DNA from: Clostridiales bacterium
Lineage (GTDB): Bacteria > Bacillota > Clostridia > Oscillospirales > Oscillospiraceae
Assembly: GCA_021201475.1 (NCBI GenBank)
Contig: JAJQEV010000128.1
Span: 1 to 35,954, forward strand
Reading direction: 5' to 3'
DNA: 35,954 nucleotides
The notes beneath the pieces are model-generated. The model did not search any database and was not told where the DNA came from. It was given only the letters and a program-made list of their open reading frames with translations. A program made the translations under genes and the position numbers. Of the stretch, positions 16,524 through 19,735 are shown one piece after another (position 1 is the first letter of the stretch; every line of letters starts with the position of its first letter).

Positions 16524-17508
16524 ATGGAACAAGTTTGGCTGGAATGCAGCATTGACACTGCCCCCGGCTGCCTGGACGCCCTGGCGGCCTACCTGACCGC
16601 CTGCGGCGTGGAAGGGCTGGTGCTGGAGGACGAATCCGACTTCGCCGCCTTCGAGGACGAAAACCGCCCCTTCTGGGACGAGGTGGACGACGCCCTGAAA
16701 GCAGAGCGCCGGGGCGTCACCCGGGCCACCTTTTACGTCGCCGCCGACGAGGAGGGCCGCTGCCGCCTGGACGAAATCACCGCCGGGCTGGAGGGCTTCC
16801 GCAGCCGCACCCCTCAGGACGCCGGTACCCTGGCCGTCACCACCCGCGCCCTGCAGGAGGAGGACTGGGCCAACAACTGGAAGCAGTATTACAGCCCCTT
16901 CCCTGTGGGGGAACGGCTCTATGTGGTGCCGGAATGGATGCGGGGGGAGGCCGTGCCGGAGGGGCGGACGCCTCTCTACCTGAATCCGGGGCTGATTTTC
17001 GGCACCGGCAGTCACGGCACCACCCGCCTCTGTCTGGAGGGGGGTGGAGCGCTACGTCCGCCCCGGCGACCGGGTGCTGGATTTGGGGACGGGCAGCGGC
17101 ATCCTCGCCATCGCCGCCCTGCGGCTGGGGGCCGCCTCCGCCGTGGGCTGCGACATTGACCCCAAGGCCACCGCTGTGGCGGCGGAGAACGCAGCCTTCA
17201 ACGGCATCGGCCCGGAGCTGCAGGTCTACACCGGCGATGTCACCCGCGACAGTGCGTTGCAGGCCCGGCTGGCGGGCCGGTATCAGCTGGTGCTGGCCAA
17301 CATCGTGGCGGATGTCATCCTGCCGCTTTGTCCCATGGTGGGGGACTATCTGGCGGAGGGCGGCCTGTTTCTGACCTCCGGCATTCTGGAGGGCCGGGCG
17401 GACGAGGTGGCCGCCGCGCTGACCGCCAACGACTTCGCCATTCTGGAGCGGCGGGAGCGGGACGGATGGGTCAGCTTTACCGCCAGGTTGGAACGCACAG
17501 CGCCGTAA
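16524..17508 (+). pseudogene. prmA: Ribosomal protein L11 methyltransferase PrmA, interrupted by a frameshift
   Basis: PrmA methylates ribosomal protein L11 using S-adenosylmethionine. Residues 1-172 read from the ATG at 16524 (MEQVWLECSID..., EDWANNWKQYYSPF, LIFGTGSHGTT). The reading then jumps to the next frame for the SAM-binding domain (RPGDRVLDLGTGSGILAIAA) and the substrate signature LANIVADVILPL, ending at 17508. The break is at a run of six G at 17039-17044; with five G the frame would read CLEGVERYVRPG without interruption, giving about 327 aa. Both halves are otherwise intact and free of stops, so this may be a sequencing indel, a recent mutation or phase variation. PrmA is dispensable in many bacteria. 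Confidence 0.88.
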
Positions 17509-17526: not shown

Positions 17527-17572
17527 CAAAAAAGAAGTGACCCGGCTCTGAACTCAGAACCGGGTCACTTCT
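17527..17572 (-). terminator. Intrinsic terminator ending the minus-strand micro-ORF unit
   Basis: A perfect 13-bp outer stem AGAAGTGACCCGG / CCGGGTCACTTCT with further inner pairing (TCTGA/TCAGA). On the minus strand it is followed by TTTTTTGCG, a good T tract; on plus only CTGTTCACTG follows, so it mainly ends minus-strand transcription, though prmA may also use it. Confidence 0.85.
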
Positions 17573-17597
17573 GTTCACTGTCAATCTGTAACTTCAT
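17565..17597 (-). other. Micro-ORF C: MKLQIDSEQK
   Basis: Ten codons and TGA, with AAAGGAGG 10 nt before the ATG. The last codons and the stop lie inside the 5' arm of the terminator stem, so ribosomes finishing it would disturb the hairpin. It has the same length and MKL start as micro-ORFs A1-A3. Translation is not shown. Confidence 0.35.
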
Positions 17598-18405
17598 CCT
17601 TCGGATGCCTCCTTTATGCTGATTTTGTTGATGCTGACGTTCCACTTTACTGCTCTGCCAGCTATCCCTCTTTACACAGCGTACCCGCCTTTCTGAACTT
17701 ACGCTTCTCAACTGCAACGCTCAGGGATGGATACGAAGAGCACTCTCATGAGAGCCTGTCACGAAAAGGAATCAAGCAAATGCTTCGTGGTACACCACAC
17801 CTTTTTCTGTGACCGTTCCGTATTGTCCTTCTGTCAGAGCATCCGGTTTCCTGAAAACCAGTGCCCATACAAATCGCCCGATCAAACGATTGAGATGCTT
17901 CGGAAGAGCTTTGGCGAATCCTGCACGGAATCTATCGCCTTTCCTGTGACCTCTGCCGGTCAGTCGTCCGGTCCCTTCGGAACTGCCAATCCTGCGCGCT
18001 GTCATTCGACAGACGGAACACGGAAGGAATTCAGCGAATGCTGTGCGGCCCTCCGCACCCTCTCGTGGAATCCTGCGCTCTGTGACAACTTCTCTGGAAT
18101 CTCAGCTTCCCAACCAATCGTCAACGCTGACGACTGAGAACTGCGGAAGTGGTTCAGCGAATGCCGTACCTTGTACTGTGGCTCCGTCGTGCAACGCCTC
18201 TGCCGATTCCTCGGCCTTGGTACTCTGCACCTGGAGTTGGTTGAAAGGGAAAGTGGAAAGAGTTCGCTTTACCTGTACATTGGCCCGTACCTCCTGGTGT
18301 TATTGTTCTGGTATTCCAGCGTCCTAACACATCCTTTCCTGCAACCGGCTGGAAGAAGGCGGATGGGGCTACGTTAAACTGCACATTGGACTGTACCTCC
18401 TTATG

Positions 18406-18438
18406 TTATTTGCCTGGTTTCTTGAAGTCCAGTTTCAT
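18406..18438 (-). other. Micro-ORF A3: MKLDFKKPGK
   Basis: Ten codons and TAA; GAAAGGA lies 8-9 nt before the ATG inside a small CTTTC/GAAAG hairpin. The series B site AAGGAGG begins right after its stop. Confidence 0.35.
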
Positions 18439-18516
18439 AACATATCGTCCTTTCAAACGAAAGAGGAAAGTGGAAGGAACTAATCAAAACTGTTCATTGG
18501 ACCGTACCTCCTTGTG

Positions 18517-18549
18517 TTATTTGACTGCTATTTTGAAGTCCAGTTTCAT
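18517..18549 (-). other. Micro-ORF A2: MKLDFKIAVK
   Basis: Same layout as A3. Compared with A1 it differs in one synonymous site (AAA/AAG) and in the codon giving V instead of S; length and stop are kept. Confidence 0.35.
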
Positions 18550-18628
18550 AACACATCGTCCTTTCAAACGAAAGAGGGAAAGTGGAAGGGACTAAGCTAA
18601 ACTGTTCATTGGACCGTACCTCCTTGTG

Positions 18629-18661
18629 TTATTTGCTTGCTATTTTGAAGTCCAGCTTCAT
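18629..18661 (-). other. Micro-ORF A1: MKLDFKIASK
   Basis: Same layout as A2 and A3, with GAAAGGA upstream and TAA followed at once by the next AAGGAGG site. Confidence 0.35.
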
Positions 18662-18963
18662 AACACATCGTCCTTTCAACGAAAGAGGGGAAATGGAAGG
18701 GCCTAATGGAAACTGTACATTGGACTGTACCTCCTGCATTCCTGAATCGGCGTCTTGCAATGGAGTTTCGCGTCAACAAGTCCTTTCATACAGAGAAAAG
18801 GGAACAGGCTGTTGTCGAGTCAGCTCTCGTTTTCACTGTTCTTTGGAGGGTACCTCCTTGTTTAGATTTTGCCGGTTACCAGGTCGGCTGCCTGTCTTAC
18901 CTAGGCCTTGGGACTCTCCTCCTTTCCGGTGAAGTGGAATGGGTGGCTTCTTTTGATGAATTA

Positions 18964-18992
18964 AGGATACCACAGTTCCTCCGTCTTGTCAA
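18964..18992 (-). promoter_or_regulatory. Strong predicted promoter of the repeat/micro-ORF unit
   Basis: Minus strand perfect TTGACA (18987-18992), a 17-nt spacer and TATCCT (18964-18969) within an AT-rich upstream region. It points into the repeat array and nowhere else. Confidence 0.75.
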
Positions 18993-19160: not shown

Positions 19161-19340
19161 ATGGAATTGCTGAAACGGAAAATTACCTCTGCGGGCAGCG
19201 CCTGCCTGGTCTGCGGCATCATTGCCATTGTGACCGGCATGACCACCGGCGTCATCCTGCTGGCCCATGGCGGCCGCCTGCTGTCCGAGCGGCGGCACTG
19301 CGACGCTTTGCGGGAGCAGCTTTACGGCGGCGACCTGTAA
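19161..19340 (+). CDS. Small single-pass membrane protein, 59 aa
   Basis: A short gene of unknown function. GGAGGA lies 8 nt before the ATG at 19161, a promoter lies about 80 nt upstream and a strong terminator 48 nt downstream, so it forms its own unit. The protein is basic at the start (MELLKRKITSAG), then has one long hydrophobic stretch (SACLVCGIIAIVTGMTTGVILLAHGG, about 12-38) and a charged tail (LLSERRHCDALREQLYGGDL) that looks helical and cytoplasmic or external. The frame is open upstream to 19089, but that extension has no ribosome site. I recognise no family. Confidence 0.7.
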   Translation: MELLKRKITSAGSACLVCGIIAIVTGMTTGVILLAHGGRLLSERRHCDALREQLYGGDL

Positions 19341-19387
19341 CCGGGTATCCTTTTATGTCCCATCCCGCTGTGGGCTGATGCATAACT

Positions 19388-19422
19388 GTGCGGAGAAGCG
19401 TCTGTTTCTTCGCACTTTTTTT
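19388..19422 (+). terminator. Intrinsic terminator after the 59-aa membrane protein gene
   Basis: A 10-bp stem GTGCGGAGAA / TTCTTCGCAC (one G-T pair), loop GCGTCTGT, then seven T. Confidence 0.9.
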
Positions 19423-19546
19423 GCCCTGCTGTCCGGCCGGAAGCGGTTCCCTGTGGCGGTTCCCTGCCGGTACTGCCCCGTCCCGCGAACGCCGAAACGG
19501 GGCATAAGAGCGCAAATTTAGTTCGAAATACAAGATTCTGTCAGTT

Positions 19547-19585
19547 TTGTACGAAATTTTACAAATTTACTACCTGTTTTTTACA
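19547..19585 (+). promoter_or_regulatory. Possible PhoP (Pho box) binding repeats before the phosphate transporter
   Basis: TTGTAC (19547), TTTACA (19558), a poor ACTACC (19569) and TTTACA (19580) recur every 11 bp, the helical spacing of Firmicutes PhoP boxes built on TT(A/T/C)ACA. They lie 35-70 bp upstream of the -10 element. The region is AT-rich, so chance is possible. Confidence 0.35.
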
Positions 19586-19615
19586 GAGGCCGGATATGGA
19601 AATCCTCTGATAAAC

Positions 19616-19624
19616 TGGTATAAT
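19616..19624 (+). promoter_or_regulatory. Extended -10 promoter of the Na/phosphate cotransporter gene
   Basis: TGGTATAAT, an extended -10 element, with no good -35 hexamer 17 nt upstream. This fits an activator-dependent promoter. Confidence 0.55.
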
Positions 19625-19735
19625 AGGGAAAGAAATCCTGCAATGCAACCATGCTTCGGCGTGTTTCTGCATGGTCCGGATCATCCCACGGCCTGCGGCG
19701 CTGCTCTGAGGCCGAGATAAGGGAGCTTGAACGGA

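Follow-up and report, generated by a model that had tools for sequence, protein, structure and literature searches.

The window that we analysed, a stretch of DNA of 35,954 nucleotides from a member of the Oscillospiraceae, carries on its minus strand (18992-17533), between prmA and nptA, sequence signals for an RNA gene of about 1.43 kb bracketed by a promoter and a terminator. The promoter (18964..18992, minus strand) comprises TTGACA at 18992-18987, a 17-nt spacer with a TG before the -10 element, and TATCCT at 18969-18964. The intrinsic terminator (17533..17572, minus strand) has an 18-pair stem followed by a T tract, and a terminal open reading frame (ORF) contributes its final codons and its stop to the 5' arm of that stem. 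The element contains nine short ORFs preceded by a Shine-Dalgarno sequence (SD), namely five minigenes of 3-5 codons and four ORFs of 10 codons, three of them internal and one terminal. Its 5' half contains tandem repeat units of about 111 nt, a full unit consisting of a 10-codon ORF and AGGAGG-N9-AUG with a 5-codon minigene; a second repeat series (17758..18206, minus strand), in which no ORF was recognised, has four copies 120-138 nt apart, which were aligned and each carry a GCAUUCGC/GCAUUUGC/GGAUUCGCC motif. No minus-strand ORF of 80 or more amino acids lies inside the element, and the four plus-strand ORFs (94-136 aa) gave no NCBIfam match and one Pfam match below threshold (12.6 bits, cut-off 20.1). 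The initial annotation of this DNA had described a near-consensus promoter, a strong terminator, repeats and the absence of a recognisable protein; all four descriptions hold, with the TG before the -10 element added to the TTGACA-17-TATCCT promoter, the terminator seen as the 18-pair stem and T tract, the repeats as real tandem units, and no significant match in Pfam or NCBIfam.

The next gene downstream, prmA, is convergent with the element. We note that the reading frame of prmA (window 16524-17508, plus strand) breaks at a run of G near 17040, leaving two overlapping frames, and that both parts lie in a single frame in relatives such as G010 and G016; the split may be an assembly error. 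Between the element and nptA, and divergent from the element, is a 59-residue ORF (window 19161-19340, plus strand) that is 88-100% identical in those relatives whose contigs extend there; the frame containing it has no Pfam match.

Applying a strict rule (AGGAG or GGAGG, a start codon, and a stop within 12 codons), we found six SD-led sites on the transcribed strand and none on the opposite strand, and none of 2000 dinucleotide shuffles of the element, which average 0.65 such sites, reached six. The three 10-codon ORFs of the repeats have a weaker SD (AAAGGA) and bring the number to nine. The nine ORFs counted in the initial annotation are thus all present, whereas the uniformly strong SDs attributed to them are not, and in the 5' half, where AGGAGG occurs seven times, the copies at 18923 and 18858 have no AUG. 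The first of these (18906..18923, minus strand) is followed by AGAGTCCCAAGG, and the second motif copy, AGGAGGTACCCTCCAAAGAACAG (18836..18858, minus strand), contains a GGAGG that can pair with its own CCUCC and has a predicted probability of being unpaired of 0.000. The minigenes, all on the minus strand and each with its SD and stop codon, encode MYSFH (18703..18735, SD AGGAGG, ATG at 18720), MNSLA (18592..18624, ATG at 18609), MNSFD (18480..18512, ATG at 18497), MCSLT (18369..18401, ATG at 18386) and MYR (18269..18295, ATG at 18280), the MYSFH minigene preceding the full repeat units and the MYR minigene coming after them. Local folding predicts that the SDs of the repeats are mostly paired (probability unpaired 0.000-0.032) and that the terminal SD is more open (0.60), so that translation looks gated.

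The 10-codon ORF of each repeat forms the loop of a hairpin, GUGUUA-UG...-UAACAC, in which the A of the AUG is paired with the U of the UAA; we call this a caged ORF. Copy 1 (18626..18666, minus strand; ORF 18661-18629) encodes MKLDFKIASK and has the helix GUGUUA:UAACAC, copy 2 (18514..18554, minus strand; ORF 18549-18517) encodes MKLDFKIAVK, and copy 3 (18403..18443, minus strand; ORF 18438-18406) encodes MKLDFKKPGK and shows a compensatory change to AUGUUA:UAACAU, each ORF ending in a stop codon. The last repeat unit (18297..18330, minus strand) has retained the helix and lost the ORF. In an alignment of 38 distinct repeat units (A5), from which the L006 copy, which ends at a contig end, was dropped beforehand, all 226 of 226 cells of the six-pair helix are standard pairs. 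Two of the pairs show two-sided changes (GC:35 AU:2 GU:1 and UA:25 UG:8 CG:5); the seven two-sided cells were reached by none of 500 shuffles, and two pairs with a two-sided change by 61 of 500. RNAalifold recovers the helix unprompted, and when the partner arm is slid as a control the pairing drops to 17-63%. A further helix, CAUCC:GGAUG over the first SD of the repeat, was read by eye and is not claimed, since alignment A7 left its arms unaligned. An ORF of 9 or 10 codons ending at the caging helix is found in 35/38 units, and the three units without one (the last unit of the window, L003 and L004) still have the helix. The 17 distinct internal 10-codon ORFs differ pairwise by 0.305, 0.282 and 0.497 at codon positions 1, 2 and 3, and the amino-acid similarity of their differing codons is positive in the ORF frame only. 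A coding test by column shuffling (1102, shuffled mean 1210) found no excess, which makes the support for coding weaker for the internal ORFs than for the terminal ones.

The terminal SD and ORF (17565..17613, minus strand; SD at 17613, ORF 17597-17565) specify MKLQIDSEQK, and the UGA that closes it (17567-17565) sits in the terminator stem, on its 5' side. We refer to this arrangement, an SD, an ORF of 8-10 codons of the M(x)LD[FIT]K type and a stop codon within the terminator stem, as the 3' module. A covariance model of the module built from 22 sequences (R1) scores the window copy at 64.4 bits and finds matches in 32/32 same-genus genomes at E ≤ 0.01. Our table of micro-ORFs covers 97 sense matches; it excludes antisense matches of palindromic terminators, the weak match L220, which has no such ORF, the low-scoring L024, L025 and L028, and the R1-matched places L165, L166 and L167. 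One ORF was picked per match, with LD or DFK favoured, and the presence of an ORF in 97/97 is therefore partly by construction. The stop is UGA in 90, UAA in six and UAG in one, with CC next in 85. The terminator stem, on an alignment fitted to that stem, is paired in 99.4% of 678 cells, with two-sided changes in 9/11 pairs and 96 two-sided cells in total, and the stop codon is retained while the stem around it changes. Among the peptides, 82/97 fit L[DQ][FITN][KD] and use all six Leu codons, a test conditioned on the motif itself (24 distinct 12-mers in the 82/97 matches). For Asp and Lys of the LD[FIT]K block, synonymous change is more frequent than in any of 300 column shuffles; for Leu (205 synonymous to 0) and for the third site it is not. 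The 29 distinct 10-codon terminal ORFs differ pairwise by 0.355, 0.281 and 0.468 at codon positions 1, 2 and 3, and the amino-acid similarity of their differing codons, again positive in the ORF frame only, reaches 2897 against a column-shuffle mean of 2492 and maximum of 3055. The high variability of third codon positions and the use of all six Leu codons suggest that the peptides may be translated, the column-shuffle controls being mixed.

The ORFs vary like coding sequence, which would also suit a micropeptide operon acting in trans, in which basic MKLDFK-type peptides, each of 10 residues and made in several copies, bind the ribosome, RNA or a protein while the hairpins only tune translation. 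That one terminal peptide type occurs in several Clostridia families, and the internal type three times per window transcript, would agree with such a role. Nevertheless, the C-terminal half of the peptides varies freely, no export signal is apparent by eye, and many members of the family have a single terminal ORF after an untranslated stretch. We regard action in trans as unlikely on balance; it is, all the same, the main rival to a regulatory RNA.

A DNA search with the element gave matches in 18 of 32 same-genus genomes, the window's own included. The unit that had been suggested as a target of comparison between prmA and nptA in relatives was found there: the window type is present in seven genomes (its own, G006, G010, G011, G014, G016 and G020), and 7/7 copies adjoin prmA, nptA or both, as far as the contigs extend. 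The copy in G010 is 94.2% identical to that of the window and the copy in G016 88.7% (148 gap columns), compared with 92.7% (G010) and 90.3-90.9% (G016) for the flanking parts of prmA and nptA. The alignable part of 19341-19726 is 85-86% identical, and the 156 bases upstream of the promoter 87.1% and 90.3% identical, in G010 and G016. Judged from these two comparisons, the element changes about as slowly as its flanking genes. When the window and five orthologues are aligned, both promoter hexamers are identical and the spacer is variable, and SDs, starts, stops and terminator are retained wherever a unit is present; G016 and G014 are without some units, and G020, G014 and G011 contain runs of N. 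A decayed gene or repeat with no conservation of promoter and initiation sites had been named beforehand as evidence against the initial reading; in the six aligned sequences these sites are conserved, and the reading stands. The presence of repeats and the lack of a protein would suit a decayed gene or a selfish repeat, yet the locus is shared by seven genomes, its identity in the two genomes compared is close to that of the flanking genes, and its helices contain compensatory changes; we give that explanation almost no credence. As far as alignments can tell, the element is an RNA gene maintained by selection.

Searches against known families and elements did not place it elsewhere. Rfam 15 finds three tRNAs in the window and nothing else. 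With permissive filters the element itself gave two matches, both to microRNAs and both at its terminator, scoring 19.5 and 16.7 bits where the gathering scores are 84 and 82, and 12 related loci gave four matches, all under the gathering score; these include an ftsZ-DE match (27.7 of 72.2 bits) that overlaps the L198 terminator on the opposite strand, and two tmRNA-type matches in L186, about 1.0-1.4 kb from the element. We note that the tmRNA part-match at L186:1-510 (minus strand, 34.1 bits) is clipped by the end of the locus and lies about 1.4 kb downstream of a family member. A search of 18 related loci returned tRNAs and two skipping-rope RNAs only, the latter (RF02924) lying in tandem at L141:896-1099 (minus strand), far from the minigene motif of the same contig. 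The initial impression that the element belongs to no known RNA class accordingly agrees with Rfam, in which nothing reached the gathering score for the element or related loci. We also rejected other candidate origins or functions: a CsrA sponge, since the CsrA domain (PF02599) is found in 0/32 same-genus genomes and in 3/14 controls; a phage origin, with no similar DNA among phages; and a plasmid origin, with no match among plasmids, a collection from which records near the window's own genome are possibly excluded.

The 3' module is widespread in the genus. A second model (R2) finds 1-6 matches in each of the 32/32 same-genus genomes at E ≤ 0.001, a few of these being one terminator read on the opposite strand too (as in G000), and copies of the module lie mostly away from the prmA/nptA place. 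R1 matches were found in 7/148 genomes of the class and 10/41 of the family, the window's own included, in a search that used stricter filters and a model drawn from few subtypes. The window's own genome has a second locus (C32:14372-14696) that is 97% identical to one in G020 and ends in MKLLISSEQ and a stop at the terminator; between G000 and G020 this ORF differs by two synonymous changes only. For 53 distinct same-genus copies the upstream sequence covers 1.2 kb or more, and a promoter of the form TTGAC[AT]-N15..19-TAnnnT lies upstream of 52 in the sense direction and of four in the antisense direction, at a median distance of 262 nt from the 3' module. A predicted promoter and the 3' module are the traits common to the same-genus set. 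The span from promoter to terminator is 218-752 nt in 61 of 67 distinct same-genus elements and 1345-1488 nt in the other six, which puts the window RNA at the long end of the family.

In several other Clostridia the minigene motif comes straight after the promoter, and the RNA ends with MLDIKSEQK or a similar peptide on the terminator. Roseburia faecis M72 (L058) has the motif too and, judged by eye, a short ORF beside a terminator. We note that tandem copies, each with its own promoter and terminator, occur in metagenome-assembled genomes of Clostridia (three in L127, two in L041). It is conceivable that end-proximal micro-ORFs only shield the RNA from RNase J and 3' exonucleases, the structured middle being the working part, and an SD-minigene near the transcript start in some members (L041, L043, L117), together with a 3'-terminal ORF that overlaps the terminator, would be expected of such an armour. 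The conservation of LDFK and the recurrence of ORFs in the repeats would then have no explanation, and we consider this account doubtful.

The genes downstream of the family members lie on either strand, suggesting that the members are standalone units and not leaders. Called by codon use, the downstream gene is co-directional in 16 of 59 cases, opposed in 25 and uncalled in 18; this procedure was right for all five prmA loci checked, whereas picking ORFs by length alone (25 co-directional and 32 opposed of 57) miscalled the prmA loci L164 and L173. Short ORFs with a stop beside a terminator do resemble the leaders of antibiotic and amino-acid genes, although with 16 co-directional against 25 opposed genes in the 41 that could be called, and with prmA convergent in the window, it is very improbable that the element is a leader-peptide attenuator of a neighbouring gene.

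The minigene motif AGGAGGTACRGTCCMATG is found in at least 119 stretches in genome contigs of 84,980 species, against about 30 expected by chance according to a hand estimate from the degeneracy of the pattern, and the 80 matches listed are mainly from Lachnospiraceae, Oscillospiraceae and other Clostridia. An in-frame stop follows the AUG of the motif within five codons at 86 of 127 distinct sites. The other two frames give 26 and 27, and 1000 shuffles a mean of 41 and a maximum of 56; when units of the window type are left out the figures are 60 of 101 in frame and 21 and 23 in the other frames. Like bar minigenes, these sites combine a strong SD with an in-frame stop within a few codons. 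Matches ahead of long ORFs look like chance matches or ordinary ribosome-binding sites and were set aside. We note that L138 carries, at 991 and 2343 (plus strand), two ORFs of 338 codons, each led by a AGGAGGTACAGTCCAATG site that is here an ordinary ribosome-binding site; over their first 30 residues the two are identical and read like glyceraldehyde-3-phosphate dehydrogenase. In Lysinibacillus (L074:6778 and L101:4672) the SD motif starts a 4-codon ORF, MVKK and a stop; an inverted repeat and a longer ORF containing THAHWDHF come next, and the arrangement looks like a leader peptide attenuator. Among viral contigs the motif occurs in four, and in three of them an ORF of 84-124 codons begins with it.

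Strong SD-minigenes could also make the RNA a sponge for ribosomes or for the anti-SD, holding 30S subunits or initiator tRNA and damping translation as overexpressed minigenes do, and both the excess of strict sites in the 1.43-kb element and the keeping of minigenes of 2-5 codons in frame would be in line with this. Such a sponge would not be expected to conserve its peptides, however, the SDs of its repeats are predicted to be paired, and 42/67 distinct same-genus elements have no strict site while 14/67 have three or more. We find the idea improbable, more so than end protection. In elements lacking strict sites the terminal SD is weaker (GAGAGG, for example), and caged ORFs and strong minigenes are confined to part of the family.

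Several smaller motifs are shared. A pattern search and pair count identified a compact pseudoknot, CGAG-AGCUGA-CUCG ... CAGC, at 18804..18832 (minus strand), and the pattern CGGNAGCUGNNCCG...CAGC is present in 28/67 distinct same-genus elements in the sense direction and in 0/67 in the antisense direction. In an alignment (A9) drawn from 20 distinct segments, with the window in place of L164 and with L260 omitted, 98.7% of 152 cells are paired; the pattern used to choose the set holds GCUG, CAGC and the outer C constant, so that only the remaining pairs are informative, and two of these show two-sided changes. We also note a common sequence, TTGYCAATTGMAAA, over or just ahead of the -35 region in L041, L043, L044 and L047, with near-matches in L123 and L127, which is possibly an operator. 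The Lachnospiraceae copies L048, L052, L078 and L106 share a short motif, ACAUAGAU/AUAUAGAU, close to the minigene motif, and the similar AUAGAU is present in copies from other Clostridia; this recurrence is a hint of deeper homology.

Taken together, covarying helices and coding-like variation of the ORFs support two of the possibilities first raised for this locus, a structured RNA and a micropeptide operon, not as alternatives but jointly, and leave the third, an RNA that titrates ribosomes, improbable. Our tentative reading, in which our confidence falls a little short of the halfway mark, is that the element is a standalone RNA gene from an undescribed Clostridia family of structured, ribosome-engaging RNAs whose fold, stability or partners would be set by occupancy of the micro-ORFs. 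Somewhat more tentatively, it may represent a new class of RNA gene, with a hairpin coding unit closed by its own start and stop codons, a handover from the stop to an SD-minigene and a last ORF ending in the terminator, the whole acting as a ribosome-gated switch built of repeated, translation-coupled folding units. In such a scheme the micro-ORFs would be translated at low, gated rates. A ribosome initiating on a caged ORF would open the hairpin and would terminate at the stop in the 3' arm, beside the following SD, from where initiation could pass to the minigene; the last ribosome would terminate inside the terminator hairpin. Occupancy by ribosomes would thereby alter the fold, stability or partners of the RNA, which could report or buffer the state of translation. 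The most likely function would be that of a regulatory RNA whose fold or lifetime tracks ribosome occupancy. As LDFK is kept despite a product of about 10 residues, the short peptide probably exerts its effect in cis, while still nascent within the ribosome. The trans-acting peptide is the strongest competitor of this regulatory RNA, and end protection and the ribosome sponge are weaker.

If this reading is right, an undescribed family of RNA genes exists in each of the 32 genus genomes searched and in other gut Clostridia, in which a standalone RNA employs ORFs of 3-10 codons for structural ends, and the start-stop caged hairpins and the stop in the terminator offer concrete sites for probing whether bacteria use micro-ORFs in this manner. 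Such genes have perhaps been overlooked because the frames are too short for gene finders and because structured-RNA screens filter out alignments that look coding. A literature search, with most subscription papers and preprints outside its scope, found no description of the family. One human-microbiome screen for structured RNAs applied a coding-potential filter (PMC8040213), and a filter of that kind could drop such RNAs. The cyanobacterial downstream-peptide motif (PMC2864571) likewise joins a structured RNA to a short ORF backed by synonymous changes; there the structure is a 5' UTR ahead of one ORF, typically of 17-100 residues, whereas here the ORFs have 3-10 codons and occupy internal and terminal positions in a standalone RNA.

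The long structured RNAs OLE, ROOL and GOLLD, also from Clostridia or other Firmicutes, are comparable in kind, although the family described here has no Rfam match and 61/67 of its elements are within the short range of spans given above. CsrB and RsmZ sponge RNAs similarly present repeated GGA or SD-like motifs in hairpins, but the same-genus genomes are without CsrA. Erm- and Cat-type leaders resemble our elements in having ORFs of 8-10 codons with a hairpin at the stop, and differ in that here there is no consistent downstream gene. Minigenes, dual-function RNAs and leader peptides are precedents for single traits, and we know of no precedent for their combination. The dual-function RNAs SgrS, RNAIII and SR1 are structured RNAs with their own promoter and terminator, as these elements are by sequence; they also encode a small protein, whereas here several putative peptides of 3-10 residues would be encoded per RNA, by ORFs that coincide with a helix or with the terminator. 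The minigenes of the lambda bar RNA likewise place a strong SD ahead of an ORF of 2-5 codons, whereas the element in the window is a chromosomal RNA gene in which several minigenes are combined with hairpins and with a conserved ORF of 10 codons.
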